Virus record (IMG/VR): IMGVR_UViG_3300021247_000478
Coordinates: 1-33,612 of that record
Origin: a virus
Length of the DNA: 33,612 bases
Direction: 5' to 3' (one strand)
This document shows, piece after piece, positions 1,517-27,832 of the stretch (the stretch's first letter is position 1; every line of letters starts with the position of its first letter). Below the pieces are notes generated by a model. That model was not told the origin of the DNA, ran no database searches, and was given only the letters and a program-made list of their open reading frames with translations. Both the position numbers and the translations under genes were made by a program.

Positions 1517-2157
1517 TATGCTTCTTCCAGCGTAACAGATATATTCCAGAGATCGTGATTAGATCCTCCACGTTTTTCAACAGAGTATGAAAAATCCGCA
1601 AAGAACATTTCCATTAATTGACTATATTGTTGTAGATGTCCATAAGGGTTATCGTACTTATCAAAGTTTGAGTACTTATCGTATGACAGATAAACCCAAA
1701 ATGAACCTTGATGGTTTTCATACCAATCAAGAAGTTCAACGCCTCCTGCTCCTGCGTCAGAGGTATACTCTAAAGAGTTGTTTCCTGAGTGTGGAGATTT
1801 TCCAGTTGAAGAATTAAAGTCTGAATTTGTAGAATGAGATCTAGAAGGAAGCATTGTCCAACTTGTAGACAGAGTTAACTTATCTGCTATGTGTGTAGAA
1901 CGCATTCTGCCATTAATCATTCTTTCTCTTTTTTCAATTCTTGTTGGGGTAAAAGAAAGTGGTGTTCTTCCATCATCAGAGAGAATCAAGAACTGATTAA
2001 ACAATTTTGTATTTTGTTCAGACCCAGTATTTGAATTTACCTCATAGCCATTTGGTATATATAGACCATCTACAAGAGTTCCAGAGTTGTCTGCCCAAAG
2101 CATGCCTTGTGGCCTAGCATACTTCTTTCTACCTAGCATATAGTTTGCAGATGTCAT
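1516..2157 (-). CDS. Distal tail (Dit-like) / minor tail protein
   Basis: A 213-aa protein encoded immediately after the tape measure gene; its ATG overlaps the tape measure stop as TAATG. In siphophages this slot normally holds the distal tail protein, which forms the hexameric hub joining tail tube to tip. The size, the Tyr/Trp-rich C-terminal half (a WVYLSYDKYSNFDKYD stretch near residues 152-167) and the lack of signal or membrane segments fit that role. No diagnostic motif was recognised, so the name rests on synteny. It could instead be another small minor tail protein. Confidence 0.65.
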   Translation of the reverse strand: MTSANYMLGRKKYARPQGMLWADNSGTLVDGLYIPNGYEVNSNTGSEQNTKLFNQFLILSDDGRTPLSFTPTRIEKRERMINGRMRSTHIADKLTLSTSWTMLPSRSHSTNSDFNSSTGKSPHSGNNSLEYTSDAGAGGVELLDWYENHQGSFWVYLSYDKYSNFDKYDNPYGHLQQYSQLMEMFFADFSYSVEKRGGSNHDLWNISVTLEEA

Positions 2158-5100
2158 TATTGTCTAACCCCCCTGAGTCTTTGCGAGTCTATTTGCTTAA
2201 TCTGAGTCATAACTGTTCTTGCAATCTCATTTGGATTAGCGTCAGACTTAACATTAACACTTAGATTATAAGTATACACTGATCCTCCAACAGTTTCTCC
2301 ATTATTCATTGCCTTAAGATTTTCTACACCATGCTGATTAACAGCATACTTGCTCATAATAAATTCTCCTGGGGTTAGCATTGCTGGCACTGTATCTGCA
2401 CCACGAGCAAAGCCTCCTGTTGCAAAATATTTAGGAACAACGCCACCCATGTTTAGATATCCCAGCGCTCCCTTACGAAGAGCGACAACATCTTGTGAAG
2501 ATATAGGCTTAATTTCTGCAATATCTTTCATCATTTGTACTGTTGCTTTTTCTGCACCGTATGTATTCCCACGACTAATCATTCCCTGAATTACTTTTTG
2601 TTGATCTGTAGCAATTGCCTGTTGATCTGTATTTAAAGGTGTTGGTGGTGGTGGTGTTTTCTTTTGATTAGCACCGCCTGAGCCTCCTCCGCCTGCACCT
2701 GCTGCAGCAGCAGCATTTGCAGCCTCAATAGCAGCCAAAACCTTTTTCCATGCAGCCTCTATGCTAAGAACTCCTGTTGCTACATCGTCCATTACTCCAA
2801 GCATATGTGCTTCTCCAAGCCATTCTGTAACTGCCTCTGTAGCAGTTTTTACAGTGTCCCACTGAGACTTTGTTTGACCAACTTTATTTGTTACATTATT
2901 AATTGCATAGGTCATATCTTTATTATATTTATCAATAATTCTTTGCATATCTCCAAGAATTGTTTCTTGCACCTTTGCTTTATCATTAAGAGCCTTGAGT
3001 GTTGTCTGTTCTGCAAGATATATAGCATCTTCTTTTTGCACAATAAGATCTTGTAATTGAACTCTGGTATATTTTTGACCATTAATTTCAACTTGAATTG
3101 CAGCCAAATCTTTTTCTTTTTGTAGTTCAAGTGCGTTCTTTTGCTTTCCAAGATTAGAAATAAAGTTTTCTTGTGAGTTTTGTGAAGCGCTTGCTCTCAT
3201 GTCTTGAGCAATTTTTGCTGCTGCACCAATGTCACCAGAAGATAGGGCTCCAGCAAGATCTGTTTGTTGTTTTTGTTGGTCAATGAGTTGCTGATTAACT
3301 TTCTTAACATCTTCCAGTGCAGCAATCTGTTCATCAATTGCCTTGGTGCGTTCTCCATAGGCCTTGTTTATTTTGTCTTCTTCTCTACCAATTAAATCAA
3401 GACCACGATTATATAGAGAAACTTCTTCTTGAATTGCATCTATTCTATCTTGCTCTACTTGAACTGCTTCTCTTGCTTTATCTACAGACTCTTGCTGCTT
3501 ATCAATAACTTCCTGATATTGTTCTGGAGTGTATCCACGCATCTTTGTAAAATCTGCCATTGCATTTTGTTTAATAATTGCTTCTTGTGCAGCAAAATAT
3601 TGATCCATTACATCTGCTGCTGTTTCTTTATCTTGAGCATCTTGGAACGCTAATACCTTTAGTGTTTTTGCTAATTCCTTAACACTGCCATCTGCCTTTT
3701 TAGCGCTAGAAATAAAGTTCTTCCAGTCAGTACTACCAACCTTTTCTGCAGCAATAGCAGTGGTTAATGCCTCATTGCCAAGAATTTCAGTAATCTTTGC
3801 AGCAGATACCCCTGCCCCTACTAATTTGTTATATGCGGTGACTTGCTCTCCAGCATTTTTTGTAACCTGTTGTTGTTGATCTACAAAACTACCTAGTTCA
3901 ACTTCCTTTGTAAACTTTTGAATTGCTTGTCCAAGATCACCAAACTTTAATTTGCCATCCTTAGTAAATGTAAATAGTCTCTTTTCGATCTTTTTAAATG
4001 TTACTGCATCAAGTCCGCCTACAATGTCGATAAAGCCCTGTGTAGCACCTGCTGCACGTAGAAGTTCGTCTGTGCCCTTAAAGCCCTTCATATCGCCTTT
4101 CAGCGCTGCTATAAAGCCCTTTACGCCCTTAGTAGCATCGATAGAGTTATTGCGTACTAACTTTAACTTCTTTAGTAGATCATCAACAAATGCGTATGGT
4201 TTATCTGCAGTTCCTCCGCCATCATTTACATTTTTTGTCCCGTCAGGCACGGGGGAATCTTTGGTTACCTTTCCACCACCTTCGATGGCTTTCTTTAGTC
4301 TTTCTACAGAACCCTTTGCATTATCAAGATTCTTTTTATAAGTTTCAAGATCTTTGCTTCCATTTTTCTTTGCTCTATTATATTTTTCTTGTGCATTTCT
4401 TAATCTTTCTGTTGAGTTTGAATATTCTAGTTGATATCTTAATGCGTCAGATATTCCAGTAAGATTTGCTACAAACTCAACCTTTTCCTTATAGGTTTTA
4501 CCATCCATCTCACTTAAAATAGTATCTAGTTGTAAAATATCTGTTGCTGATAAACTTCCATTAGCATAACCAATAAGAACTTCTGTTCTCATATTCTTTG
4601 GCAAATTCTTTGTTACAGTCTCCTTAAGTAGTTTTGCAACTCTCTTATTTGTTTTTTCTAATGATTTAAATGTTGTATCTGCCATATCAGCGATTGCTGC
4701 TTGAGAAGCCTTACCACTTGGATCAACTTTATCAAGAGATACTACAAGATCATCTGTTGCTTTTTTAATATTTCTAAAGTTAACCATCTGTGCTTCATAT
4801 GCAGCATTGTATTGATCAACTGTTATTTTGCCATCAACGTACATTCCATTAAGAATAGCAAGAGAGTTTTTTTGATCTTCCAGTGCAAGAGTTAAGCCTA
4901 CTGTTGCAAACTTAGTATTTTTAATTTGTGTTTCTTTGCTCTTTGCAACCTCTGCATTATATCCGTAGTAATCAACATTACCTTGTGCGTCTGTTTGGAG
5001 TTGAGGCGGTTTAATCTGATCAATCTTTCTTTGAATTACTGAAAGACTAGTTTCAGATGCTTTGCTTAAATAATTAATTCTTGCATCAATAGACAACGGT

Positions 5101-8100
5101 TCCTTGGTTATATCCTTGCCATCTTTATTAAGAAGTTCTTGAACTTTGCCCTTAAGTTTAATTTCACTAACCCCAGAAAGTTCTGCTGCAGCCTTAATGT
5201 TTGCTGCAATATCTGCAGGGGCAAGACCAAATGTTGCTGCTCTTTGTGCAACATCTCTTGCAGTTACATCTAGTGCATTTTTCTTTCCCATTCTTCCAGA
5301 AATCTGTGCACCAACTGTTTTACCTTCTTCTTGATAGAACTTTCTAAAGTTTGCTGCCTTAGCAAGATCTGCGTCAATAAATCTCTTATCTCCAACACGG
5401 TTAAACTGTCTTTCTGCAGGAAGCGCTTTATCTCCAACATATCTTGAATATGCATTAATAGATTCAATGTTTCCAAGTCTTGCTTCTGCTTCTTTCTTCC
5501 CTGCATTTTCTAAATCCTTGATATATTCTTGTTGTTTCTTTCTTAAGAAGAAGAACCCTGCTGCTACCGCAGCAACTCCAGCAACTGCAAGACCAACTGG
5601 GTTAGTTAAAAGTGGAAGGGCCATTGCAAGAGATTGAAGCCCCATGACTGCAGGCGCTGCAGCCTGTGCCAATTGTCCAACTGGTCCTGGCATCATTGAT
5701 GCAGCCATCATTGCACCTGATGCAACCATTCCTCCACGCATTGCTTGTCCTGATATTGCTGAAGCCTTAGCCTTAAGTGGCTGGGCCTTAAAGTTTTGAT
5801 ATGCCCCAGAAAGTTTTCCACGCATAGATTGCTTTGGCATTGGTCCAATCATGGTATCTGATATTCCTGGTGCTGGAGTAAATCCTTCTGGAAGCACAGA
5901 CATACCACTATTATTTCCAGTACCTGCAGGAACAAGAAGTCCAGAGGCTGTTTGTTCAAATTGTGTTACCGCTCCATTTGCAACCTTGGCTGCTGCTGCA
6001 GCAACTGCACCAGATCTTTTTTCCATTCCAACAATAAGTCCATTATCAATATCCTGACCAGTTTGATCAGTAAATCTTGATGGTGATTCAGTTCCTGCAC
6101 CCTTTGCAACTGCTCCGACTGCAACTCTACCAACTTGCATTGCTTGTTGCTCAATAAGAATCTGTCCTTCTTTAAATATTGCACCATCTTTAAGTTGTTG
6201 CATAACTTGCTGTTCAATGTCAGATCCTGCACCTGCTTTTTTACGTAAGAATGGTTCTACATAAGTTTGTGTTGGAGCAGAGTATGGTATGTGTGCAAAC
6301 TGGAAAGACTTAGGATAATCTTCTGGCTGATTCATTCCACGCATTGCAAGTTCTGAAGAGAATGACTTCTTAATCTGATCCTTATAACTTAATCCAAATC
6401 TTTCTGTAGATGCTCTCTTAACAATATTTTGTCCAGCCTCATTTACCGAAAGTTCAACTCTTTGTAGATTTTGTTGTGTTAAATCACTTTCTAATGGAGC
6501 CAATAGTTTTCTCACAGCAATAGACATTGACTTTAGATCGGAGGAGGCAATCTGTCCATTTGCAGCCATCTCTTCTAGGCTTTTAATAATGAGCGGATAT
6601 TGAGTTTGTCCAACTTGTGCAATGTTAGTTACATCATCTGTAACTCCCTGCTTAAATATGTCAAAGATTGTATCTAGGGTTGGAGTAAGGTTTTCTCCAA
6701 ACTTACGATAGTTTGCTTGTGTTACACGAATGCCTTCTTCCATCATCATGGCTGTTTTGATTGATGCTGCAAAAGAAGCCTTTGCTTCCTCGTTCATCAT
6801 AAGCCATTCTCTATCCATTCCAAAACCACCAGGTGTGTTTCCTGGTGCCATCATTGCAACTGGAGAATACCGTCTAGACTTAAATGTTCCACCAAGAACT
6901 GTTCCAGTAGTTGGAGTTAGTCCACCTGCAAAACCAGGAATATTTCCTGATACAAGTGCATTGACTAAATCTGGATTTCTTGCAACAGACTTTGCTGGAA
7001 TGATTGCCTCTCCATTTGAAACTCTTGCAATAATAGAATCTGATGTCCCAGTTCCAGGACCACTAATAACTCCACCATCAGCATATCTCTTTGGCTGTCT
7101 AGATTGTGGAACCATCATTCCTGGATTATTAATTGCAAATGAGTTTGCTGCAGCAGTTGCACTTAAGTATGCATTACGCAGATTGTTAACTGCATCTGCT
7201 TCAATTGTAAATCGTTGTGTTAGTCTTGCGTGAACCTGATCAAGTGAGTGAGCAACTGCCTCTGCCTGCATCTGCTCACTAGTAAGATATTGAGTTTGAT
7301 CACCAAGAAACTTAGACTGACCGCTTAGTCTTAGATACCCATTTCTAATTAATCCAAACAACTTTAACATTTGTCCACCAAAGTTAGCAATAAGACCAAC
7401 AAGCATTAGTACTACTGGACCAACACCAGCAAATAGTGTAACAAGTGTTGTTACTACTTTCTTACTTCCATCTGAAAGATTGTTGAACTTATCTGCAATC
7501 TTTGTAAAAAATTCTATTATAGGTGTAACAACCTTAAGGAATGCTTCTCCTACTGGAGCAAGAGATGCTCTTAGTGCCTCAAGTGATGCCTTGAACTTTG
7601 TTGCAGCATTTTCCTCAATTGCATTTAATTCTTTGTTTGCAATTGCTGCCAAATCTTGTGATGACATCTTAACAAGTTCTAAAGCATTTGCTGCTTGAGA
7701 TCCTGATCTAGCAATATTATCAAAGAGCGCTGAAACTCTTGCAAACTGAAACTTTCCAAATAGTTGTTCAAGAATTCTTTGTCTTGCAAGCGGTGTAAGT
7801 TGTTTCATCGCATCTGCAAGGTCAAGAACGGTACGCATAATGTTTCCTTCGTTCTTCATTGTCATTGCATTTAGATCAATGTTAACGCTGGCAAGCATTT
7901 CTTTTGCTGCCTTGCTTGGGTTAATAATAGATGCAAGTGCGGACTTCAAACCATTTGCTGCTTCAGCAGCATTAACACCACCCTCTTGCATTGCTGCAAG
8001 GAACACTGACATGTCCTTGATGTCTCCACCAAGACCTTGAATAACTGGTGCCACTCTTGGAATTGCATCTGTTAAGTTTTGAAGGCTTACTACAGATTGG

Positions 8101-9083
8101 TTTTCAACTGCGTTAAGGAAGTTGATTGATTCTGAAAGTTGATCGCTATTCATTTTAAAGGCTGTTTGAATTGCAATAGTTGCAGATAGCGCCTGTTGCT
8201 TATCTACTTCACCAAGTACAGAAAGTCTAGTTGCTGCCTTTACTTGTTCTTCAAGTTTTCTTCCAGAAAAACCTGCTGCTGCAGCATCTGCTGCAAGAGA
8301 CATTGTGTCTGCAATAGCAACGCCATACTTTGTAAACTCTTCTGCAAGACCACGAATAACTGTTATATTTGCTTGTGTTTCTGAAGGCAGCGTAAACAGA
8401 TCTCCGTATACTCTCTTAAATCTAATTACCTGCTTTTCAAGATCCATGAAAGCCTTAGATGCAGTAGAACCAAATATACTAAGTGGAATAGTAAAACCAA
8501 CCATCAACTGACGGCCTGCCCACTGAGTATTCTTACCAAAGTTAATTAAGTTAGTTGTTCCTTGTGCTAACAGTTGATTAAACAATTGCTGCTTTTGAGC
8601 AGCCATCATTGTCTTAGTTCCCAGATTTTCCATATCAAGAGCAAGTGGTGTAACGGCAATAGCCTTCATTGCTCCAGAGGCATCTCTGCCCATCTTAATA
8701 TATTGTGTCTGTAACTTTCTTACACGCTCTTCAGCAACCTTGTTTATTGTTTCAAACTCAGTTTTAAATACCTTGCCAAAAGTTTTAGAGGAGGCTACCC
8801 CGTATCTAAAATACTCACGCATTGAAAATTTGTTCTTCTCAAGCGACGTTGTAAATGATTCGGCAGATGTTTTGATTGTCTGCATACGAGCAGCAAATTG
8901 ACCTGTAGCATTAATTGAGTTAACAAATTCTTGCTGCAGGTTTCTTTGTGCTATCGCTGCTGATGCAGACGATTTTGCTATTTGATTATGGAACTGTGAG
9001 ATCTGCCTCTGTAGATTTTTTAATTCACCTAGGGCTGCAGACGTGTCAATATTAACGCTGATATTAGCATTAACATCTGACAT
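2157..9083 (-). CDS. Tail tape measure protein
   Basis: At 2308 aa this is the longest gene in the window. Tape measure proteins set tail length and travel through the tube into the host during DNA entry. The N-terminal ~500 residues are helical with the typical phage TMP core (a region around AEEFTKYGVAIADTMSLAADA). Hydrophobic, probably membrane-active segments lie near residues 539-571 and 1110-1181. Predicted coiled coil occurs near 1858-1895, and a Gly/Pro-rich linker with a PPPP run is at about 2121-2148. A motif ending in NGEAIIP or PGEFIM after a YADGG or YFATGG element appears twice (about 666-700 and 2219-2245). The start is supported by AAAGAGGTGAG just upstream. At roughly 0.15 nm per residue the tail would be about 340 nm long. 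Confidence 0.95.
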   Translation of the reverse strand: MSDVNANISVNIDTSAALGELKNLQRQISQFHNQIAKSSASAAIAQRNLQQEFVNSINATGQFAARMQTIKTSAESFTTSLEKNKFSMREYFRYGVASSKTFGKVFKTEFETINKVAEERVRKLQTQYIKMGRDASGAMKAIAVTPLALDMENLGTKTMMAAQKQQLFNQLLAQGTTNLINFGKNTQWAGRQLMVGFTIPLSIFGSTASKAFMDLEKQVIRFKRVYGDLFTLPSETQANITVIRGLAEEFTKYGVAIADTMSLAADAAAAGFSGRKLEEQVKAATRLSVLGEVDKQQALSATIAIQTAFKMNSDQLSESINFLNAVENQSVVSLQNLTDAIPRVAPVIQGLGGDIKDMSVFLAAMQEGGVNAAEAANGLKSALASIINPSKAAKEMLASVNIDLNAMTMKNEGNIMRTVLDLADAMKQLTPLARQRILEQLFGKFQFARVSALFDNIARSGSQAANALELVKMSSQDLAAIANKELNAIEENAATKFKASLEALRASLAPVGEAFLKVVTPIIEFFTKIADKFNNLSDGSKKVVTTLVTLFAGVGPVVLMLVGLIANFGGQMLKLFGLIRNGYLRLSGQSKFLGDQTQYLTSEQMQAEAVAHSLDQVHARLTQRFTIEADAVNNLRNAYLSATAAANSFAINNPGMMVPQSRQPKRYADGGVISGPGTGTSDSIIARVSNGEAIIPAKSVARNPDLVNALVSGNIPGFAGGLTPTTGTVLGGTFKSRRYSPVAMMAPGNTPGGFGMDREWLMMNEEAKASFAASIKTAMMMEEGIRVTQANYRKFGENLTPTLDTIFDIFKQGVTDDVTNIAQVGQTQYPLIIKSLEEMAANGQIASSDLKSMSIAVRKLLAPLESDLTQQNLQRVELSVNEAGQNIVKRASTERFGLSYKDQIKKSFSSELAMRGMNQPEDYPKSFQFAHIPYSAPTQTYVEPFLRKKAGAGSDIEQQVMQQLKDGAIFKEGQILIEQQAMQVGRVAVGAVAKGAGTESPSRFTDQTGQDIDNGLIVGMEKRSGAVAAAAAKVANGAVTQFEQTASGLLVPAGTGNNSGMSVLPEGFTPAPGISDTMIGPMPKQSMRGKLSGAYQNFKAQPLKAKASAISGQAMRGGMVASGAMMAASMMPGPVGQLAQAAAPAVMGLQSLAMALPLLTNPVGLAVAGVAAVAAGFFFLRKKQQEYIKDLENAGKKEAEARLGNIESINAYSRYVGDKALPAERQFNRVGDKRFIDADLAKAANFRKFYQEEGKTVGAQISGRMGKKNALDVTARDVAQRAATFGLAPADIAANIKAAAELSGVSEIKLKGKVQELLNKDGKDITKEPLSIDARINYLSKASETSLSVIQRKIDQIKPPQLQTDAQGNVDYYGYNAEVAKSKETQIKNTKFATVGLTLALEDQKNSLAILNGMYVDGKITVDQYNAAYEAQMVNFRNIKKATDDLVVSLDKVDPSGKASQAAIADMADTTFKSLEKTNKRVAKLLKETVTKNLPKNMRTEVLIGYANGSLSATDILQLDTILSEMDGKTYKEKVEFVANLTGISDALRYQLEYSNSTERLRNAQEKYNRAKKNGSKDLETYKKNLDNAKGSVERLKKAIEGGGKVTKDSPVPDGTKNVNDGGGTADKPYAFVDDLLKKLKLVRNNSIDATKGVKGFIAALKGDMKGFKGTDELLRAAGATQGFIDIVGGLDAVTFKKIEKRLFTFTKDGKLKFGDLGQAIQKFTKEVELGSFVDQQQQVTKNAGEQVTAYNKLVGAGVSAAKITEILGNEALTTAIAAEKVGSTDWKNFISSAKKADGSVKELAKTLKVLAFQDAQDKETAADVMDQYFAAQEAIIKQNAMADFTKMRGYTPEQYQEVIDKQQESVDKAREAVQVEQDRIDAIQEEVSLYNRGLDLIGREEDKINKAYGERTKAIDEQIAALEDVKKVNQQLIDQQKQQTDLAGALSSGDIGAAAKIAQDMRASASQNSQENFISNLGKQKNALELQKEKDLAAIQVEINGQKYTRVQLQDLIVQKEDAIYLAEQTTLKALNDKAKVQETILGDMQRIIDKYNKDMTYAINNVTNKVGQTKSQWDTVKTATEAVTEWLGEAHMLGVMDDVATGVLSIEAAWKKVLAAIEAANAAAAAGAGGGGSGGANQKKTPPPPTPLNTDQQAIATDQQKVIQGMISRGNTYGAEKATVQMMKDIAEIKPISSQDVVALRKGALGYLNMGGVVPKYFATGGFARGADTVPAMLTPGEFIMSKYAVNQHGVENLKAMNNGETVGGSVYTYNLSVNVKSDANPNEIARTVMTQIKQIDSQRLRGVRQ

Positions 9084-9102: not shown

Positions 9103-9441
9103 TTATTCAGCGTTTGCTGATGCAAGGGCAGCGTTCAGGAATGAATCTTCGCCCAACTTAATTCCAGATGCAACATCCACAATCTTGTAAACGGTAGGAA
9201 GATCAATATTTGCTTCCAGCGCTGCTGCATCCTTTGCCAATTCTGGCTTATACTGCTCTAGTGCAATTTGTACACATTCCATTAGTACGGTCATTGACTT
9301 ATCATTGTCATCTGCGACCTGTGCGATTTTGTCGAACTTCTTCATAAATTTACGAAGCAAAGATACGCTGAGTGGCTTTAGAACAAGTTCTGTTCCGTCC
9401 ATAAGTGTTACCTTGTTTGCCTCATATACTGTTGTTGTCAT
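9103..9441 (-). CDS. Tail assembly chaperone, short form
   Basis: A 112-aa acidic helical protein between the long chaperone and the tape measure gene. It aligns along its length with the N-terminal ~95 residues of the 225-aa product encoded just upstream: both share a VY start region, a PL..R.FM..F block, an ECV.IA..Q..P.L.K block and a DL.T.YKI...A..IK block. Tail chaperones coat the tape measure during tail assembly. ATG follows GGAGGAAAATA. An extended -10 box lies 28-36 nt upstream of the start, giving the gene its own promoter. No frameshift extension is possible: only 19 nt separate its stop from the tape measure start. It therefore acts as the short gpG-like partner. Confidence 0.8.
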   Translation of the reverse strand: MTTTVYEANKVTLMDGTELVLKPLSVSLLRKFMKKFDKIAQVADDNDKSMTVLMECVQIALEQYKPELAKDAAALEANIDLPTVYKIVDVASGIKLGEDSFLNAALASANAE

Positions 9442-9468
9442 TATTTTCCTCCATCGGTTGACTTACTA

Positions 9469-9477
9469 ATTATAGCA
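9469..9477 (-). promoter_or_regulatory. Extended -10 promoter for short tail chaperone
   Basis: The minus strand reads TGCTATAAT, a perfect TGn extended -10. It lies between the long and short chaperone genes, followed by a leader of about 20 nt with a GGAGG ribosome binding site. No good -35 element was seen. The identical nonamer lies before the ribonucleotide reductase gene. Confidence 0.55.
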
Positions 9478-9486
9478 TGAAACAGC

Positions 9487-10164
9487 CTAATTTTTTGTAA
9501 AATCTTCATAGTCTAATCCCATACCAATTCCAAAACCTGCTTTGGTTGCATTGACACCCTGATAGTATAAAATATCGTCACTGTCTTTAGCCTTACCACC
9601 ACTAAATACTCTAGCCTTCATTTCTTCCCAAGGATCTGCTTTACCTGTTTCATCATCTAAATTAACACCCTGCATTGCAGCATCAAACTTTTTCTGCTGA
9701 TACTCAAGATCTCTTTTTGTAGATAGTAGTAATGTTAATTCTGGCATAGATAAAGATTCTTCTAGTTCTTCAAAGTTCTTCCATATTCCCGTCAAAAATG
9801 CTTCAGCCTCTAGTGCTGGCAAGTCTATCTCAGCCCAACTAGCACCTTCAGTGGACCCCTTAGTTTCTTCAGTCTTATTAGTTTTGATTTCTGCAGCAAA
9901 TTCAAGAATCTTATATAATGTTTTTAGGTCAAAAGAATTGGCAACATCGTCTTTGGTTTTATATAGGTCTGGAGCAAACTGTTTCATTGCAATAAATACA
10001 CACTCTACTACAAGATCCAAGGCAAGGTCCTGATCTTTTTCTTCTGAGACAAGAATAAAACTATCCATAAATTCTCTCATATATTTTATTTTTAATGGAT
10101 AAACTTTAATTAAATTATTATTGATATCTTCTACGTAGTCAGTGTTATATACTTTTTTGGCCAT
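9487..10164 (-). CDS. Tail assembly chaperone, long form
   Basis: A 225-aa protein directly after the tail tube gene. Residues 1-95 are paralogous to the 112-aa product downstream. Residues ~100-225 form an extra acidic domain containing a WAEIDLPALEAEAFL element, comparable in position to the T extension of gpGT chaperones. In most siphophages the long form arises by programmed frameshifting from the short gene; here it is one continuous frame. No Shine-Dalgarno precedes the ATG. Instead a TGGTATACT box ends 6 nt before the start codon, which predicts a leaderless mRNA. A terminator-like hairpin separates it from the tail tube gene. Confidence 0.8.
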   Translation of the reverse strand: MAKKVYNTDYVEDINNNLIKVYPLKIKYMREFMDSFILVSEEKDQDLALDLVVECVFIAMKQFAPDLYKTKDDVANSFDLKTLYKILEFAAEIKTNKTEETKGSTEGASWAEIDLPALEAEAFLTGIWKNFEELEESLSMPELTLLLSTKRDLEYQQKKFDAAMQGVNLDDETGKADPWEEMKARVFSGGKAKDSDDILYYQGVNATKAGFGIGMGLDYEDFTKN

Positions 10165-10170
10165 TTTATA

Positions 10171-10179
10171 AGTATACCA
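10171..10179 (-). promoter_or_regulatory. Extended -10 promoter giving a leaderless transcript
   Basis: The minus strand reads TGGTATACT, then six bases (TATAAA), then the ATG of the long chaperone. The spacing puts the expected transcription start at or within a base of the ATG, and no ribosome binding site is present. The same 12-mer TGGTATACTTAT lies before the pre-portal gene. Confidence 0.6.
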
Positions 10180-10194
10180 AAAAGAAAATAGAAA

Positions 10195-10220
10195 AGCCCA
10201 GACTTTTTACGGCCTGGGCT
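10195..10220 (-). terminator. Intrinsic terminator after the tail tube gene
   Basis: On the minus strand a 7-bp perfect stem (AGCCCAG / CTGGGCT) encloses a 12-nt loop and is followed by TTTTCTATTTTCTTTTT. It lies 20 nt after the tail tube stop and directly before the promoter of the next gene, so it would limit read-through from the highly expressed tail tube gene into the chaperones. Confidence 0.7.
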
Positions 10221-10239: not shown

Positions 10240-10872
10240 TTATGCTGAAACGGTACGATCTACGATCTTTCCGTATGAGCCTGAGTTGTTTGGAAGAAGA
10301 CGGAAAGTTACATCGAACATTGTCGCTGCATCTCTCTTAGCAGATACTGTTACGATTTCGATTGAAAGTGCACGGTATGCTACATAAACTCTTTCCAAGT
10401 TTGAACCTTCAGCACAGTCACCTGTACCTGGTCCTACTGCAACGAGTCCACGCTCTACTGGACATTCACCAATATCGCCTGCTGACAAGTTGAGTGTTGG
10501 GTTACCTGCAACGGTTGCAAGATCAGCATCTTTTCCTGCAAGAGAGAAAAGAAGGTTTTCCAAAGTTGCTTCTGCGAAAGAAGTCTTAAGGTTAACCTTC
10601 ATGCCCTGCTTGAAGAGTTTTGCTGCGTCAAGTACCTGATCCACTGCAACTTCTGCGAAGTCTGGTTGGAACTGGATTTCGAGACCGTTAGAAGTATAGC
10701 CAACGTTACGGAAATCTGTAGGAGAAACGAGTGTTCCTTCTAGAGTATCCTTAAAAGAAGTTCCGTCTACGTATGTTGGTAGAGCGGCGTTTGTTAGTTC
10801 TCCAAGTTCGTATGTGAACAGCGCTGCTGCTCCAACGATAATCTGTGAACTGTTACCTCTTGTATATGCCAT
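10240..10872 (-). CDS. Major tail (tube) protein
   Basis: A 210-aa protein starting MAYTRGNSSQ, located between the neck genes and the tail chaperones, the normal slot for the tube subunit. The composition (many Ala, Thr, Val and Gly, few Lys, beta-rich, no signal) fits a self-assembling tube protein. The start is backed by AGAGGTGAAAAATT before ATG. It has its own extended -10 promoter upstream and an intrinsic terminator downstream, consistent with a monocistronic, highly expressed virion gene. Its codons (for example GTA, GCA and TCT mixed with GTTACG-type C/G endings) look more selected than those of the accessory cassette. Confidence 0.8.
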   Translation of the reverse strand: MAYTRGNSSQIIVGAAALFTYELGELTNAALPTYVDGTSFKDTLEGTLVSPTDFRNVGYTSNGLEIQFQPDFAEVAVDQVLDAAKLFKQGMKVNLKTSFAEATLENLLFSLAGKDADLATVAGNPTLNLSAGDIGECPVERGLVAVGPGTGDCAEGSNLERVYVAYRALSIEIVTVSAKRDAATMFDVTFRLLPNNSGSYGKIVDRTVSA

Positions 10873-16539: not shown

Positions 16540-18147
16540 CTATTCGGACAATTCAGACAGTTCGTCAGATTTTCTACCTTCACCCTTTGGATTTCTGCCA
16601 GCAACTGTTGCTGATCCATCCGACTGATTATTTGCTCTCTGACCATCTCTTGCCCTTGTAGTAGTTGCATCTGCTGCTTGTTGTGGCTTAAGATCTAGTG
16701 GCTGATCCCCACCATCACGCTGTGGCATACGCAAAATTGTTCTTGCTTCATTAGGAAGCATAATCTGGTTCTTTACATAACGCTCAAGAATTTGTGATTG
16801 AGCAATTTCATCTGTTAGTGTAAGTTCATTAAACTTAAACTGAAGAATGTCAGTTTGTTCACGAATGATTTTATTAATTGGCTTTTCAAGTTCTCTTTGT
16901 GCTGGTCTTGCAACCTGCTCTTTAAATGTTCTATCTTGTGCAAGGGCTGCTGCAATAGCCGATGAATCTGAACCACCAAGTTTAGAAAGTGGTACCTGAT
17001 GTGCAACCAAAATGTCATCACGGTTTTGCTTACGATACTTTTCAAATGATCCTTCTTGAACACCATTCTCAATTGGCTCCATCTTGAACTCAACTTTATT
17101 AGTGTCGGAATCTCCTGGCAATGGAATATAAAGTGTTCTGTGGTTTTGCCCTTTCATTCCTGTTTGTAAGAATCTAAACATCTTGTCTTCTGCTTCTCCA
17201 GAAAGTTTTGCACCCTTAAGAGTTACAACGTATCTAGGCACAGCCTTGTTGCTAAAATAATCAATGTTGTATTGTGATGCAAGCATGTCACCCTGTAGTG
17301 CAGTGATTGCTGAAATAATATCTGGAACACCATAGAATGTGTTTAGTGGTGAGTACTCTCTAAAATGTATGATCTCATTTGGACGATTATCTGCTGTTAC
17401 TGGGTTTGGATTTGTTGCTCCAAAATTACGGAAGTATACAACCTTATTTCCAATTACTTGAACAAATCCATCACGCAGTCTACGCACACGCATTGTTACT
17501 GCTGGTATGTGACCAATATATCCAATCTGACCCTTTACTGTTCTACCTACTTCAACATAGCCATTACCAGTAGCCTGAACATCGGTGTAAACCTTTTCCA
17601 TAATTGTTGTAAAAGAATCTTCTTGGTTTAAACTTTCTAGCCAGTCTGTTAGTTCTACTTTTGCACGTTCAATTCTTTTACGAGCATTCTGAGCAGTTGT
17701 TGGCTGAGCAGTCTCCAACTTTAACATTGTTCTTGGAGATATTTCAAAATCATAACCTAGTCCAACAATATTTTCTACCTTTGCATCAATTGCAGCATGG
17801 TTTGCAAATGATGTATCATAAAAACTTGCAAGTTCATACAGGTTCCATGGTGGAGTAATTACATCAAACAGTCCGTAGCCATTTCTATATATTGTTCCTG
17901 GATTAATTTCTTTTGACTTTGCCCCGTCTTTTCCAGTTCTTACTGCAAGTGCGCTATCCATGTATTGTGGAGTTACTTCACCCTTTGCAATTCTTCCAGC
18001 ACGGCGCTTAAAATTATTATCTAAACCAGACAGACCTTTTAGTTCGTCCCAAGTTTTATTAAATGGATCCTGCTCTTTAAAAACATCTGCTTCTTGTGGA
18101 AACTCATCCATTGAAGCACGAACTATATATTCGTTTTGGTCAGACAT
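16540..18147 (-). CDS. Portal protein
   Basis: A 535-aa protein whose ATG overlaps the stop of the small upstream gene (TAATG). The dodecameric portal forms the DNA entry and exit channel. Typical portal features are a start near the clip region with VENIVGLGYDFEISP (about 106-120), a stem region MLASQYNIDYFSNKAVPRYVV, a GMKGQNHRTLYIPLP segment, and the C-terminal AHQVPLSKLGG with a long helix of the crown (FKEQVARPAQRELEKPINKII). The length is normal. The last ~60 residues are Gln/Arg/Asp-rich and likely disordered. It is followed after 32 nt by the protease gene. The terminase genes that usually precede portal are not in the window. Confidence 0.9.
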   Translation of the reverse strand: MSDQNEYIVRASMDEFPQEADVFKEQDPFNKTWDELKGLSGLDNNFKRRAGRIAKGEVTPQYMDSALAVRTGKDGAKSKEINPGTIYRNGYGLFDVITPPWNLYELASFYDTSFANHAAIDAKVENIVGLGYDFEISPRTMLKLETAQPTTAQNARKRIERAKVELTDWLESLNQEDSFTTIMEKVYTDVQATGNGYVEVGRTVKGQIGYIGHIPAVTMRVRRLRDGFVQVIGNKVVYFRNFGATNPNPVTADNRPNEIIHFREYSPLNTFYGVPDIISAITALQGDMLASQYNIDYFSNKAVPRYVVTLKGAKLSGEAEDKMFRFLQTGMKGQNHRTLYIPLPGDSDTNKVEFKMEPIENGVQEGSFEKYRKQNRDDILVAHQVPLSKLGGSDSSAIAAALAQDRTFKEQVARPAQRELEKPINKIIREQTDILQFKFNELTLTDEIAQSQILERYVKNQIMLPNEARTILRMPQRDGGDQPLDLKPQQAADATTTRARDGQRANNQSDGSATVAGRNPKGEGRKSDELSELSE

Positions 18148-18551
18148 TAGTCACCACTTCCATACTTGTCGTGTGTGTCTTGTGCTGCTTTCCATGCACC
18201 TAAATCATTCATAGAAGGGATAAGTCCTTCTGAAAGTCTTTGTTTTTGTTCAGAGTATTCTTCTTCTGAAATCCTTGTGAGTCCTGGTACAAATACGCAT
18301 GTGCCATCTCCTTCATCTCCGTAATATTTTGCTGCTTCTTTAAGTTTGGAGATTTGCATAATGTCACCCTTCATGGACTCAATGTTTAAAACTGATCCAT
18401 TACCATCTGTGAACCACTTGCCATTTGCCTTTTTATAAACATATAGGCCCCAGTCATAGTGCTTCTCAATAATCTTTGCACGAGATTCACCAACTTGCCC
18501 CTTCATTTTGGGTAGAGACTTACGCTTTTTCTTTGGATTTTCAAGATTCAT
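18147..18551 (-). CDS. Small conserved pre-portal protein, unknown function
   Basis: A basic N-terminus (MNLENPKKKRKSLPKMKG) is followed by a compact domain with HYDWGLYVYKKANGKWFTDGNG and an acidic, helical C-terminus. The longest frame starts at 18557, but the ATG at 18551 is preferred. A TGGTATACT box ends 7 nt before it, there is no ribosome binding site, and the same promoter 12-mer lies ahead of the leaderless long chaperone gene. With this start the protein is 134 aa. The gene is coupled to portal (TAATG). Small genes just before portal in actinophages are of unknown function; I do not recognise this one. Confidence 0.65.
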   Translation of the reverse strand: MNLENPKKKRKSLPKMKGQVGESRAKIIEKHYDWGLYVYKKANGKWFTDGNGSVLNIESMKGDIMQISKLKEAAKYYGDEGDGTCVFVPGLTRISEEEYSEQKQRLSEGLIPSMNDLGAWKAAQDTHDKYGSGD

Positions 18552-18558
18552 AACCATA

Positions 18559-18569: not shown

Positions 18570-21500
18570 TTAAACAGCATTTTGGGTTGAACTCTGCCAC
18601 TCAATATCACTATAGAAGTTATATTCGTAATCTTTAAACGATAAAACCTTTGGATTTGTTTCAGATGGGTTGTAATCATCAACAATAACCTTATTGGTTC
18701 CAGCATAGGCCTTATAAATATCTCCTGGATTTGCTCCATAGTATGATGTTGAAGATATAACTAATACCCCCTGCCATTTATATGCTATATCCCAGAAGTC
18801 CCAGTTAAGAGCAAGAAGGCCTGCATACTTAACCTTAAACCATGGTCTAGTTCTAACATTTTGAACTTCCTGCAAATTAGTAGATTTATATGTTGAAATA
18901 AGATTAACTAGCAATGGACCATTTATTCTAATAGATCCAACAAAACCATTAAAGTTTAGCAGGTTAGAAAAAGATATTCCAAGAAATGCCCATTCTTTTG
19001 TTGTTATTACTGGGTCATTAACAATCTTTCCATTTAGGTAAAAAACAATTCCATCTTCTAACTCTCCAGTATTTTCATTTATTGCATATATCTTTGCTCT
19101 TTGTCCACTAGGGCTATCTGAAAGCATAAAGAATTTTATTGTTCCGTTTTTACTTTCAATATCAAATATTTGAGTTGGTGTGTATGGGAAAAAGTTTTGA
19201 TCATATCTAATAGCAATTTGCATTGACATGACCTTATAGTCATTAGACATAGACTTATTAATTGGAATTGCCAGACCCCTATTTTCTAATGGATCAAAAC
19301 TTCCTCTTACTTGGATACCGCTTTTTCTTGTAAGATAAAGATATGGAGAACTTCCTTTATAAATGCTAAAAGGGTTTTCAGTTTTATAATCATAGTAGAT
19401 TCCAGACTTCTTGTAAGGATAAATAGATGTTCCAAACCTGGTTCCAATTTCATTTGCAGAATTATTTAATGCTTGTGATGCCAATTGCAAAGATCTAATT
19501 TCTAGTGGATTTTTTAACATTTGTTTTACGTTAAAATCTAAATGAGTAACAATAGACAAATCATTAAAGTCTATGCCTTCTGGCGGATAAATAATACTAT
19601 TATCAACTACCTCATATTTAGTGTTTAAGAAACTATCGTATATTGGCTTGCCTTCAGTATCTGCATCAACAATGTAGGATCCTGGTTTTACTATGCCATT
19701 TGAATTAGGTCTAACAGAGTATTTAAAAGAATCCGAATTGTTGTTTGCACCCTCTGCTGTATATTGAAAAGATATATAAGATCTAACCAAAGACTTAGAT
19801 GTGTCTAGGCTATATGTTATTGTGGACTTTGTCATAAGATCTGAATAGTCATTATATCCAGTATACAAATGATTATCCAATGCTGCATAATTTTTTTGTA
19901 CTGGAATTTGATACTTAGTCATCAAATCTTGATAATTCCATGCTGTGTACTCTCCAGTTTCTATATAACTTAGTGGCGCTGGGTAATTTATATTAAACTG
20001 TAAGAAATCTAAACCATACTTTCTAATACCCTTTGAGTCCGTAATATATTTAGCAAAATATGTTAATGGTATATTGTCTTCCCAAGAACTTGCAACATCA
20101 ATGTCCAGTGAAAACTTGTTAAAATTAACTGATCCAACTAGTCCATAACTTGGCTTGTGATCATTAAGTTCTGTTGTAACATATGCAGCAACTACACCAC
20201 CAGATAAATAATATTGCCAAAACTCTAAATTGTTTTCTATAAACTGATCTAAACTATTGTAGTAGCCACCCTGGTTTCCAAAGTATGTGTCTCCAGCATC
20301 ATGGGTCCCAGTCTCCAAATACTCATAGACTTCCTGATATTCTTTTGGAGTTCCATTATTTGCAAATAGGCTTTTTATTTTTGTAAAGTTTTTAGCATTA
20401 TCAAAACAAACCTTATAAATCTTTCCAACGAAAGTATTAGATAATTCCTTTGTTCCTCCAACATAAACTCTTAAAGACCCCCTGTTTCCAAGTAGTTCAG
20501 AAACAGGTCCTCCATAGTAATTTGAAAATGTTTCAAAATTTAATCCTGCAGAAAAAACTTCTCCAGCAGCAATTCCCATAGATCTATAAAGCAACTTAGT
20601 GCTTGATCCGTGCTTTAATATATACTCTATATGATTTTCTACTAGGTTAACCGAAATATAATCTTTTGTTATTTGATCTTCTATTCTAAATAGCGTTTGA
20701 TACGCTGACGTAATTTCTGTGTATTTAAATACACCAAAAATAGATGATGCAAAATCATTAATTGGATTTATAGAATCAAAAACTAAATACGACTGAGTAA
20801 GATTCCATTGAGAATTTGGTTTAAATGAAAAAAACTTATCTGATTCATTTTGAGTTGCATAATTATCTATATTAAAGTTTGATAGTGTTTTATTGTTTGA
20901 TACAAAGGTTGGCAGTTTATATTCTGGCAAAGATAAAAAGTTGTTCTTAACAGCAAGATTATCTAAAACACCTTGCGACCACATACCTATATCTGGATAT
21001 AAGTAATTGTTTGTGTAGTTAGCAAAAGGATAGTCAATAAATACAGATGTTCCACTGTATGAACTATTAATGTTTTCTGGAATTTCTACACCTTGACCAT
21101 AAACAAATCTTCGCTTTGCAACAATTGATGGAACCTGATACTGATAAATAGCCACACAGTCAACTTCTATTGGAGATATATCATCATATGCATAAAACCC
21201 TAGCCAGTCATTATCTTTTCCATTTGAGGTTTTGTTTGGAAATGAAAGACTATCTGTAACAAAATTTAAAGAGATAACCTCTTCGCTATTTAGCAAAAGA
21301 CTTGCAGTATTTTTTGACACCTTAATGTGTATAAGCATTGGCCTTGTCCATTCTCCTACAAAGAATGATCCAATATTGTCAGATATCTTTAGTGTTAAAA
21401 ATGGTCCATTTACATAAAGTCCATCTGTGGAGTTAATTGGTCCAAAGATTCTCTTTAAACTTGTTGCGCTTGAATTAATTCTTAGCCACATCTCAACTGT

Positions 21501-22361
21501 ATAATCTTTAAACTTTCCATTATTATTTAAAAATCCTTGTCCAGGAATAATAAGAGATGGAAGGTTATCTTTGTTTGGTGTAAGAATGGTTGTATTTGAT
21601 GCGCCGTAAACCATTGGAATGCCAGAATTTTTTGCACATAGGTAAAACTTATTTAATAAATAATACCCAGAGTTTTCTGCAAAGCCATAAGCCTTTGCCT
21701 CTATACCCTTTGACTGAGGAATATTAATTGTTGAAGGAATTGCAAGTTCTGAAGTTCCTAAAGAGAAAGAGTTAAATTCCTCTGACCACTGCCCCACCGT
21801 TATTCCATTAATCAAAAACTCATACTCTGTATTTGGTGTTGATGACTTTAAATATGTAAACTTTATGACGGGTCTCATTTCAGCAGAGTCATCTGGTATC
21901 TGAAAAGTCTCTGAAACAAAAAACCATTTTTCTGCAATAGAGATATCATAATGTTTTAAATTTTGAATTAATGATCCAGTTGTAACGTCAAAATATTCAT
22001 AGCCTATATCGACACCAGTTAGGTATTGACTATATGCATACAGGTATGCCCCTACGCAAAATGTTTCTTTATCTTTATTAAGTTCTGAAAAATTAAATAT
22101 ATTTGGACCAACAGCAGATGCAGTCTCATAATCACCCGTAGGTTCTGCTCCAACTACTTTAATAACTGAACTATTAATAAAAGGTTCATCCAGTGCGTCA
22201 GTGAAATTAGACCCAGAGCAATTATCAAAAGACCAAGAAGACGAATTTCTTTGTTGCTCTGTAATTAAAGAAATATAATCTGCTGTATCATCAAGAGCCC
22301 ACAAAACTGTTGGGTGCTCAGCGAACACCTTTTCTGCATATAGGTTTGATGGATTAGACAT
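18570..22361 (-). CDS. Large LamG / concanavalin-like virion protein
   Basis: A 1263-aa protein starting MSNPSNLYAEKVFAEHP. Three regions resemble laminin-G/concanavalin-like beta sandwiches: about 280-400 (KDYTVEMWLRI ... MLIHIKVSKN), 530-660 (FGVFKYTEIT ... LRVYVGG ... GKIYKVCFDN) and 1040-1180 (QIAIRYDQNF ... WAFLGISFSN ... GSIRINGPLL). The opening DDTADY-type segment is typical of phage minor tail proteins that carry such domains and bind surface glycans. There is no signal peptide, membrane segment or catalytic motif. It is placed between metabolic genes and the portal rather than with the tail tip, which is unusual. The start has no ribosome binding site; a TGATAAAAT box lies 9 nt upstream. 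Confidence 0.7.
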   Translation of the reverse strand: MSNPSNLYAEKVFAEHPTVLWALDDTADYISLITEQQRNSSSWSFDNCSGSNFTDALDEPFINSSVIKVVGAEPTGDYETASAVGPNIFNFSELNKDKETFCVGAYLYAYSQYLTGVDIGYEYFDVTTGSLIQNLKHYDISIAEKWFFVSETFQIPDDSAEMRPVIKFTYLKSSTPNTEYEFLINGITVGQWSEEFNSFSLGTSELAIPSTINIPQSKGIEAKAYGFAENSGYYLLNKFYLCAKNSGIPMVYGASNTTILTPNKDNLPSLIIPGQGFLNNNGKFKDYTVEMWLRINSSATSLKRIFGPINSTDGLYVNGPFLTLKISDNIGSFFVGEWTRPMLIHIKVSKNTASLLLNSEEVISLNFVTDSLSFPNKTSNGKDNDWLGFYAYDDISPIEVDCVAIYQYQVPSIVAKRRFVYGQGVEIPENINSSYSGTSVFIDYPFANYTNNYLYPDIGMWSQGVLDNLAVKNNFLSLPEYKLPTFVSNNKTLSNFNIDNYATQNESDKFFSFKPNSQWNLTQSYLVFDSINPINDFASSIFGVFKYTEITSAYQTLFRIEDQITKDYISVNLVENHIEYILKHGSSTKLLYRSMGIAAGEVFSAGLNFETFSNYYGGPVSELLGNRGSLRVYVGGTKELSNTFVGKIYKVCFDNAKNFTKIKSLFANNGTPKEYQEVYEYLETGTHDAGDTYFGNQGGYYNSLDQFIENNLEFWQYYLSGGVVAAYVTTELNDHKPSYGLVGSVNFNKFSLDIDVASSWEDNIPLTYFAKYITDSKGIRKYGLDFLQFNINYPAPLSYIETGEYTAWNYQDLMTKYQIPVQKNYAALDNHLYTGYNDYSDLMTKSTITYSLDTSKSLVRSYISFQYTAEGANNNSDSFKYSVRPNSNGIVKPGSYIVDADTEGKPIYDSFLNTKYEVVDNSIIYPPEGIDFNDLSIVTHLDFNVKQMLKNPLEIRSLQLASQALNNSANEIGTRFGTSIYPYKKSGIYYDYKTENPFSIYKGSSPYLYLTRKSGIQVRGSFDPLENRGLAIPINKSMSNDYKVMSMQIAIRYDQNFFPYTPTQIFDIESKNGTIKFFMLSDSPSGQRAKIYAINENTGELEDGIVFYLNGKIVNDPVITTKEWAFLGISFSNLLNFNGFVGSIRINGPLLVNLISTYKSTNLQEVQNVRTRPWFKVKYAGLLALNWDFWDIAYKWQGVLVISSTSYYGANPGDIYKAYAGTNKVIVDDYNPSETNPKVLSFKDYEYNFYSDIEWQSSTQNAV

Positions 22362-25025: not shown

Positions 25026-25688
25026 TTATAAAAACTTAATCCAATTTGGATTATCTTCAATACCAAAACTAACTAATCTGCTAAATGGTACAACATCATA
25101 TGCAATAGTTATTCGTGGTTGTTCTTCATACCAATCATCTCTACCGTGTGAAAAACCATTTGCACATAAAACCATTCGATTGTTTTTATTTATATTGCTA
25201 AATACTTCTTGTTCGTTAATCTTGTAGTAGGTAATAGATGGCTCTGCATCAACACAGTAGTAGCCATGAAAGTCTGGTGCTCCAAAACCACCTAAATGAT
25301 CATGAAAAAACCTATTGTTTTTTAATGGACTGTATTCTTTATTATTTACAGATTTAATATCATAGTTAAACCAAGCACGTACCATATAGTTTTGTTCATC
25401 AAAATCGTATCCATAATGTTTACAGGCAATGCTTGTTAAAGTTTTTAACTCATCGTACATTTCTTTAATGATTGGATCATGGGACTTAAATAAATTATAC
25501 TTTTTATTTAGTTTGGTTGGAGCATTGTTTAATTTATTATATTTTTTAACTAATAAATCTGTCAACAGATTATCTTCTTTTAGGCTATTTGAAAGAATTT
25601 CTTCATGTTTAATATCTAAATATCTTTTTAAATTGTCTAAATCAATTGACAAAAAACTTTCAAAGATTTTAAAATTATCCTTATTCAT
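25026..25688 (-). CDS. 2OG-Fe(II) oxygenase-like protein, paralogue 3
   Basis: A 220-aa protein starting MNKDNFKIFESF, coupled to the glycosyltransferase gene by ATGA overlap. It aligns with the two paralogues at 27800-26536: AWFNYD, FFHDHLGGFGAPDFHGYYCVDAEPSITYYKI, NRMVLCANGFSHG and PRITIAYDVVP. Candidate iron ligands are in His129-Asp-His131 plus distal His181. Arg192 is the likely 2-oxoglutarate anchor. The distal motif is FSH instead of the HPH of its paralogues, and the shared EQHWIPL tail is diverged to NPNWIKFL. It is more AT-rich and more diverged than the other two. The substrate is unknown. Confidence 0.75.
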   Translation of the reverse strand: MNKDNFKIFESFLSIDLDNLKRYLDIKHEEILSNSLKEDNLLTDLLVKKYNKLNNAPTKLNKKYNLFKSHDPIIKEMYDELKTLTSIACKHYGYDFDEQNYMVRAWFNYDIKSVNNKEYSPLKNNRFFHDHLGGFGAPDFHGYYCVDAEPSITYYKINEQEVFSNINKNNRMVLCANGFSHGRDDWYEEQPRITIAYDVVPFSRLVSFGIEDNPNWIKFL

Positions 25689-26554
25689 GATACTGAGTTC
25701 AACTTTTCAATATATCTTCTGCCACCAACTGTATCTAACGAAGAATGTCTGTCATACTCTATATCATTAAAATCAAAAGGTAGCAGGTATAGTTTTTGAG
25801 CATCTATACCAGTTGCAGACAAGAATTTTGATGGATCTAGATAAATAAGTTTTGATGTTTTGTTGTTTATCATGAGATCTAAAACCTCATTATAATTATG
25901 ATTTAATGAAAAAGGGACATAGCCTCTTTCATGAATAGGTAAAGAAATGTTTTTATAATATCCAGATGGCAAAGAGTAAATATCTACATTATGATTTAAT
26001 AAGTACATAGAAATATATTCTTCTTCTCCATAATACTTTAATTGAGTGGGAATTTCAATCTGCTTAACTATATCAAATGATCCAAAGATAAAGTTTCTAT
26101 CAATGTAGGATGTCTGAGTAACCTTTTCTGTTCTTACTTTTTTCTTTTTAATATAAAAATTTTTATCTATTGATAAGTTATAAGCACTACATCCAGAAAT
26201 AACAGAGTTCTTTGGTAGCATATCTATAAGTTCTGTATCCCAGTTTAAAGGCATTTCGACATGTTGTTTTAGAAGCAAAGCATATTGATACTCTTTTTCA
26301 TAGTTTTGCTTTAAACATTTTTTTAAATAGTGTAGTGGACTTATCAATTCATCCCACCAAATAACTTCATAGAACAAGTCTTTGTGGTTTGAAAACTGCT
26401 TAAGTCTTGTTAAATTATTTTGATCACTAACATATATATGTAACCTATTATTTTTAGAACTACTATCTATTAGTTGATTAACAAACTCTAAAAGATTTGG
26501 CTCTTTATATGAATAGATATATACAAAGATATCTTTTATATTAGTGGTATCCAA
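25685..26554 (-). CDS. GT60-like glycosyltransferase (Skp1 GlcNAc-transferase type)
   Basis: A 289-aa protein. Motifs follow the order of GT60 / GlcNAc-transferase proteins: an IFVYIYSYKEPNLLEFV opening (family: SIASYRDPEL), ALLLKQHVEMPLNWDTELIDML (family: LQIDSHMRF..WD..LI), FIFGSFDIVKQI, and YYGEEEYISMYLLNHNVDIYSLP (family: GEEISMALRAYTHGYDLYSP). The family adds GlcNAc to hydroxyproline in Dictyostelium Skp1. The Asp of the IDSH motif is replaced here (LKQH), which could change metal use. The start is TTG at 26554, backed by AAGGAG six bases upstream and overlapping the previous gene by 19 nt; no ATG lies before the conserved first strand. It is sandwiched between oxygenase paralogues. Confidence 0.65.
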   Translation of the reverse strand: MDTTNIKDIFVYIYSYKEPNLLEFVNQLIDSSSKNNRLHIYVSDQNNLTRLKQFSNHKDLFYEVIWWDELISPLHYLKKCLKQNYEKEYQYALLLKQHVEMPLNWDTELIDMLPKNSVISGCSAYNLSIDKNFYIKKKKVRTEKVTQTSYIDRNFIFGSFDIVKQIEIPTQLKYYGEEEYISMYLLNHNVDIYSLPSGYYKNISLPIHERGYVPFSLNHNYNEVLDLMINNKTSKLIYLDPSKFLSATGIDAQKLYLLPFDFNDIEYDRHSSLDTVGGRRYIEKLNSVS

Positions 26555-27180
26555 TGCTGCTCCTTAGCAGTCCTAATAGTCTCTAAAGGTGTAACATCGT
26601 ATGCAATTGTAATTCTAAAGTCTTTTTCATTCCAACTTTGAATACCATGAGGATGACCAGTTTCAGATAAGACAGCACGGTTATTCTTGTTTACATTAGT
26701 AAACCTCTCTCCATCAATACCGCCTATCTTGTAGTAGGTGTTGGATGGTTCAGCATTGACGCAATAGTATCCATGAAAATCTGGAGCACCCTTTCCCTCT
26801 AAGTGATCATGCAGAAAACTATCTGGCAAAGGCTCTGGCTTTTGATAGTTATCAAAATTAAACCAGCCCTGAATCATATAGTTTTGTGCATCAAAGTCAA
26901 TACCATAATAAGAACATGCCTCTTTAGTCATTTCAGAAACTGCACGATAAATGTTGTGAAGTCCTTCATGATGAAATTGAAAAACATTATACTTAGAACC
27001 AAGATTTGTTGCTGGAGATCTATTCTCTAAAACATCAAAATCTTCTTTTGTAATGTTTGGAATTAAACCATTTTCTAGTCCATGCATCTTATCTTGTAAA
27101 AACTTTGTTAGAGAGTTAAGGTCATTACTTAAAATTCTATCAAAAAACTTATGCTGTTTATCTATTTTTACTGGACTCAT
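26536..27180 (-). CDS. 2OG-Fe(II) oxygenase-like protein, paralogue 2
   Basis: A 214-aa protein. The preferred start is ATG at 27180, overlapping the preceding stop as ATGA; a longer TTG start at 27195 lacks a ribosome binding site. It shares with paralogue 1 the blocks KYNVFQF, YMIQGWFNFD, LHDHLEGKGAPDFHGYYCVNAEPSNTYYKI, NRAVLSETGHPHG, FRITIAYDVTPL and the terminal EQHWIPLI. Candidate iron ligands lie in His124-Asp-His126 and distal His176/His178, with Arg189 as the cosubstrate anchor. The pattern recalls the '2OG-FeII_Oxy_5' type of phage oxygenases. It is probably a hydroxylase acting on a protein or small molecule not identified here. Confidence 0.75.
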   Translation of the reverse strand: MSPVKIDKQHKFFDRILSNDLNSLTKFLQDKMHGLENGLIPNITKEDFDVLENRSPATNLGSKYNVFQFHHEGLHNIYRAVSEMTKEACSYYGIDFDAQNYMIQGWFNFDNYQKPEPLPDSFLHDHLEGKGAPDFHGYYCVNAEPSNTYYKIGGIDGERFTNVNKNNRAVLSETGHPHGIQSWNEKDFRITIAYDVTPLETIRTAKEQHWIPLI

Positions 27181-27800: not shown

Positions 27801-27824
27801 TGTTTCTCCCTTTGACATATTCTT

Positions 27825-27832
27825 ATTATACA
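27825..27832 (-). promoter_or_regulatory. -10 promoter of the oxygenase-glycosyltransferase group
   Basis: The minus strand reads TGTATAAT, immediately after the stop of the upstream gene and 6 nt before the in-frame ATG 27818. The preferred ATG 27800 follows with a Shine-Dalgarno, so the message could start at either codon. Confidence 0.45.

Follow-up and report, generated by a model that had tools for sequence, protein, structure and literature searches.

Few recoding events in long-tailed phages are as conserved as the G/GT frameshift, which is believed to be kept because the ratio of its two products matters. In lambda, gpG and gpGT are produced by a programmed −1 frameshift, and their ratio of roughly 30:1 matters (PMC5009743). 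Other arrangements have been described: the passage of PMC10885494 that cites Vladimirov et al. 2022 reports that some T4-like phages do without frameshifting and have a short gene together with a long fused one, and in Microbacterium EA1 phages the chaperone genes are expressed separately with no evident frameshift (PMC7302621, PMC11659878).

The locus analyzed here lies in a 33.6-kb viral contig with 37% G+C (IMG/VR record IMGVR_UViG_3300021247_000478, positions 1–33,612; hereafter the window). As in lambda-type phages, it is located between the major tail protein and tape measure genes and yields a short protein made of an N-terminal domain and a long protein that adds a C-terminal domain. 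It differs in having two genes and no frameshift, with the long form encoded by a single open reading frame (ORF) that is placed before the short one. The nearest isolated relatives are Streptomyces phages of the Stanwilliamsviridae (Bmoc, Moab, Emma1919 and others), whose G and T domains are homologous to those of the window and have the same neighbors; these phages, however, possess a single G whose end carries a slip heptamer, and their T is in the −1 frame. T4-like phages resemble the window in pairing a short gene with a long fusion that carries the short domain, a likeness of architecture for which we do not claim common descent, but T4 genes 26 and 51 are on opposite strands and T4-like tails are contractile. 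Between gp26 and gp51, which we take to be the T4 chaperones, there is weak homology (20% over 161 aa, E 2e-6), and we know of no leaderless/leadered pairing in T4-like phages. The EA1 phages share two ORFs without evident frameshift, long then short, ahead of the tape measure gene, but the AlexAdler genes are a split G and T and not GT plus G; we rejected them as a GT-plus-G precedent because the AlexAdler pair are not detectable paralogues (E 0.46; one genome).

As T4-like phages already possess a short gene and a fused long gene, the two-gene principle is not new. New elements are a siphophage clade with this arrangement, the frameshift relatives of that clade and the pairing of a leaderless with a leadered start. 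A search of the available literature returned no report of this clade, of such a change beside frameshift relatives or of the pairing, although such an absence is no proof. A large clade of uncultured phages, with identifiable frameshift relatives, seems to have swapped the frameshift for duplicated genes with two fixed start architectures, and it provides a natural experiment on what recoding is for, in which it becomes testable whether the ratio or the slip is the selected trait.

In the window, the structural genes run along the minus strand in the order portal, capsid, small genes, major tail protein, long, short and tape measure, and the position of both chaperone-type genes between the major tail protein and tape measure genes is shared by annotated relatives. 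The preliminary description had reported a long protein of 225 aa in a single frame followed by a separate 112-aa gene, and both ORFs are indeed present on the minus strand (Table 1). No Pfam model matches either protein. Both match PHROGs of unknown function only, those of the long protein being phrog_10504 on residues 1–100 and phrog_10474 on residues 127–211.

Table 1 Coordinates of the two chaperone-type genes, their signals and their neighbors in the window.
Feature	Position	Strand	Remarks
Major tail protein gene (context)	10240..10872	-	phrog_2175 E 4e-29; phrog_885 major tail protein E 3e-4
Intrinsic terminator after the major tail protein gene	10195..10220	-	9-bp stem, U-rich tail, fold z -3.5
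Extended -10 of the long gene, TGGTATACT	10171..10179	-	hexamer ends 6 nt before ATG
Long tail assembly chaperone gene (fused G-T type)	9487..10164	-	225 aa, one frame; same fusion at 193 related loci
G domain of the long protein	9883..10164	-	residues 1-94; BLASTP, profile-profile and predicted model
T domain of the long protein	9490..9837	-	about residues 110-225; homologue of the -1 frame T ORF of Stanwilliamsviridae and environmental relatives
Extended -10 of the short gene, TGCTATAAT	9469..9477	-	in the intergenic gap; hexamer ends 27 nt before ATG
Shine-Dalgarno GGAGG of the short gene	9448..9452	-	in the upstream sequence
Short tail assembly chaperone gene (G only)	9103..9441	-	112 aa; G-domain paralogue
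Tape measure protein gene (context)	2157..9083	-	2308 aa; phrog_10030 E 3e-101

The long protein consists of a shared N domain and an added C-terminal T domain, and the short protein consists of the N domain. Over their first ~95 residues the two share 32% identity (95 aa, E 7e-15 by BLASTP), and a profile–profile comparison of the N-terminal domains gives a probability of 99.95 (E 1.2e-37). The predicted models, each with a mean pLDDT of 74 that rises over the shared domain, have a common order of elements (E9-12, E18-21, H26-41, H45/46-63/64, H71/72-77/78, H80/81-91/92). Sequence, profile and predicted fold thus agree with the earlier claim that the short protein is a paralogue of the N-terminal domain of the long one, and the structural comparison proposed at that time, which could have revealed two unrelated proteins, finds the domains related by predicted fold. 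A match to the fold of HK97 gp13 (2OB9) is found at rank 1 for the long protein (Z 4.8, 89 aligned) and rank 2 for the short protein (Z 4.4, 85 aligned), with Z low in both cases. A Foldseek search returned nothing significant for these proteins, and sequence searches of the PDB with each of the two families brought up nothing meaningful, the rows at E 0.4–1 being chance.

The assignment of both proteins as tail assembly chaperones rests on their position, on annotated homologues, on the −1 layout in relatives, on phrog_1932 and on the weak HK97 gp13 match. The homologues in Streptomyces phages are annotated as tail assembly chaperone, and phrog_1932, which carries the same annotation, is matched by 8 of 60 family members with a best E of 3e-4.

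To place the window among its relatives, we surveyed 247 loci from IMG/VR, a phage collection and one MAG using G and T profiles. At 193 of these, G and T are joined in one ORF that is followed by a second G gene, and at 44 G is followed by T in a different frame, which is −1 in all 44. Seven loci have the fusion only, and those checked (L085, L092, L093, L136) end near a contig edge; the remaining three are incomplete. The second G of fusion-type loci is spread over all three frames with respect to T (80/73/40) and thereby provides a control for the invariant −1 offset between G and T in the frameshift type. The 44 frameshift-type loci comprise Streptomyces phages of the Stanwilliamsviridae and environmental contigs. 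Annotated phages that match are Streptomyces phages only, and those opened that have a family assignment belong to the Stanwilliamsviridae. The long and short proteins of the window both land on one locus of these phages, in which G is followed by T, and the annotated join of the long form in Emma1919 has a length that implies a −1 shift. In the frameshift-type relatives, it is thus a −1 frameshift that joins the same G and T domains. No relative was found in the plasmid collection, and a genome scan yielded one frameshift-type locus with CCCAAAC (L249, MAG contig CAINGU010000031.1). This contig is binned as an uncultured cyanobacterium, and it is possibly phage DNA in the bin.

The distinct frameshift-type genes all carry a heptamer in the last ~70 nt of G (33/33). 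It is classical in 17, with GGGAAAC in nine (one of which has a second heptamer adjacent), CCCAAAT in six and CCCAAAC in two. The other 16, all Streptomyces-type, carry CCCGGAA, a non-classical heptamer that is probably the Samistivirus slip site. We also observe that in most of the Samistivirus-type loci (L145–L160) the −1 frame opens exactly at CCCGGAA, just past a stop. Among 127 distinct fused genes, none has GGGAAA[CG] or CCCAAA[CT] in register near the junction. The preliminary description had held that the long gene lacks a frameshift site, and a conserved slip site sought across these 127 genes was not found. The only X XXY YYZ heptamer in register in the long gene of the window is AAAAAAT at codon 223 of 225, with none at the G–T junction, and the combination that marks a frameshift locus, T in another frame with a slip site at the end of G, is absent from the window. 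The long gene is without a usable slip heptamer. Unrecognised recoding could nevertheless still release a short product from the long gene, to which the separate short gene would be a supplement; in the window the −1 frame reaches stops directly after the G domain, so that a slip there would yield a G-sized protein, and some X XXY YYZ heptamer occurs near the junction in 21 of the 127 fused genes. These 21, however, are scattered in position and sequence, and none is of the GGGAAAC/CCCAAA type, so that we consider such recoding extremely improbable.

Start signals were compared over distinct upstream sequences, 101 for the fused gene, 105 for the short gene and 31 for frameshift-type G. For the fused gene, we scored TGn plus a −10 with at least 4 of 6 matches that ends 5–9 nt before the ATG. 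Such an extended −10 is found in 96 of 101 upstreams as compared to 2% of shuffled sequences, and the remaining five have a −10 at 6 nt without TGn. The hexamer is off consensus, with a mean of 4.95 of 6 matches, and a Shine–Dalgarno core is present in none of the 101 upstreams, nor ahead of the long gene of the window. Since the hexamer of the long gene lies so close to its ATG, a leaderless mRNA is expected, the −10 spacing being consistent with a transcript that would start at the ATG.

We considered whether the −10 beside the ATG of the long gene is no promoter at all and the gene is instead weakly translated from major tail protein mRNA that reads through. A simple −35/−10 scan indeed does not report this site. 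This explanation appears very unlikely to us, as the motif recurs at a fixed, short distance from the ATG far above the level in shuffles and a terminator-like hairpin lies just upstream of the fused gene in 90 of 101 distinct relatives. Moreover, exact TGnTATAAT or TGnTATACT occurs at seven sites in the window, each of which is on the coding strand and precedes a gene.

The short gene presents a different picture. An extended −10 lies 23–41 nt upstream in all 105 sequences and at the fused-gene distance in none (0/105); it is a perfect TATAAT in 102 (mean 5.97 of 6 matches), and a Shine–Dalgarno sequence is present in 104. The promoter and ribosome binding site sequences previously ascribed to the short gene of the window are thus borne out, both there and in its relatives. 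Frameshift-type G is likewise leadered, with an extended −10 in 30 of 31 upstreams and a Shine–Dalgarno core in 24 of 31. The gap between the fused and short genes is 25–61 nt (median 47) and holds no terminator, with a terminator-like hairpin found before the short gene in 0 of 105 relatives, and transcripts begun before the long gene therefore probably continue into the short gene. The preliminary description had opposed a leaderless to a leadered start under two promoters. The contrast in start holds in about 100 distinct loci; the promoters, however, are nested and not independent.

The fused genes come out as a single clade (SH-aLRT 85) in a tree built from 58 T domains, nested in the frameshift-type series, and the G-domain trees group all GT copies together (94 in one tree, 88 in another). 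The free G-domain tree places the environmental frameshift types beside the short gene. A clade of GT and short G that excludes the frameshift types is not rejected (p-AU 0.785) and has an lnL 32 above that of the free quick tree; as the constrained tree fits better, the free placement is no evidence against one duplication. The environmental frameshift types as a single sister clade are not rejected either (p-AU 0.419), and the direction of change is therefore drawn partly from parsimony. The simplest reading is a single origin from a frameshift ancestor, with which the trees are compatible at modest support; the domains are short, and GT N-domains evolve fast. A possible trace of that ancestor, the tail of the short protein as the ancestral 0-frame tail, was tried and rejected; the tail in the window is similar, but tails across the clade are too variable.

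The homology, the gene order, the loss of the relatives' slip heptamers and the two conserved start architectures are direct observations. Taking these together, we think it probable that the window encodes a G/GT pair in which duplication replaced the −1 frameshift and GT and G are made at a ratio set by transcription and initiation. An ancestral programmed −1 frameshift locus would have been duplicated, with one copy becoming a permanent in-frame G–T fusion (225 aa) and the other G alone (112 aa). The off-consensus extended −10 and leaderless start would keep GT at a low level, and a consensus extended −10, a leader and a Shine–Dalgarno sequence would provide G in excess, with extra G coming from transcripts that read through from the promoter before the long gene. 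As in lambda, G would form a coat on the tape measure protein, and recruitment of the major tail protein would fall to the few GT molecules. A ratio set elsewhere by ribosome slippage may here be set by transcription and initiation, and we infer from the conserved upstream sequences, in support of the preliminary description, that the leaderless/leadered pairing sets G:GT. In actinobacteria, leaderless translation is not always weak. It is also possible, if short of probable, that the way in which initiation occurs, without a leader for GT and with a leader and a Shine–Dalgarno sequence for G, is itself the conserved device that replaced ratio control by programmed frameshifting after the duplication, in which case the ratio may track the translational state of the host.

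A different explanation is that the copies have diverged in job, with GT-type and G-type proteins assembling together with different partners or sites, and that the difference between their promoters is incidental. The two G domains of a locus are on average 42% identical, and nothing points to homogenisation. The GT copy is also the faster-evolving one, with a mean identity of 51% for GT N-domains vs 69% for the short gene when both are compared across one set of locus pairs, and with GT diverging faster in 94% of pairs. Other genes of the window (18147–18557 and 18570–22361) also look leaderless. These points are in keeping with divergence, but the leaderless/leadered contrast has the same direction without exception in about 100 distinct loci and the short gene nearly always has a consensus −10, and we regard an incidental promoter difference as unlikely.

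Several other features of the window were recorded, all on the minus strand. In the two additional leaderless-looking genes, a TATACT is found 7 nt ahead of the second ATG in the first gene and a TAAAAT 9 nt ahead of the ATG in the second gene. A second tandem pair of paralogues is located at 27833–28570 and 28561–29280 (31% identity), one of them weakly like DUF6065. Three similar proteins encoded at 25026–25688, 26536–27195 and 27177–27857 carry HFHGYY/DFHGYY and YxxxFxxQxYM motifs; two of the three share 44% identity, with no Pfam match. Two ORFs that together span 29973–31284 overlap in different frames inside a GGATTCTC-type repeat; one has an fn3 domain (30526–31284; PF00041, E 3e-8) and the other a weak match of the intein-splicing kind (29973–30761; PF14890, E 0.0016). 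Either a frameshift joins the two ORFs or the repeat is mis-assembled.
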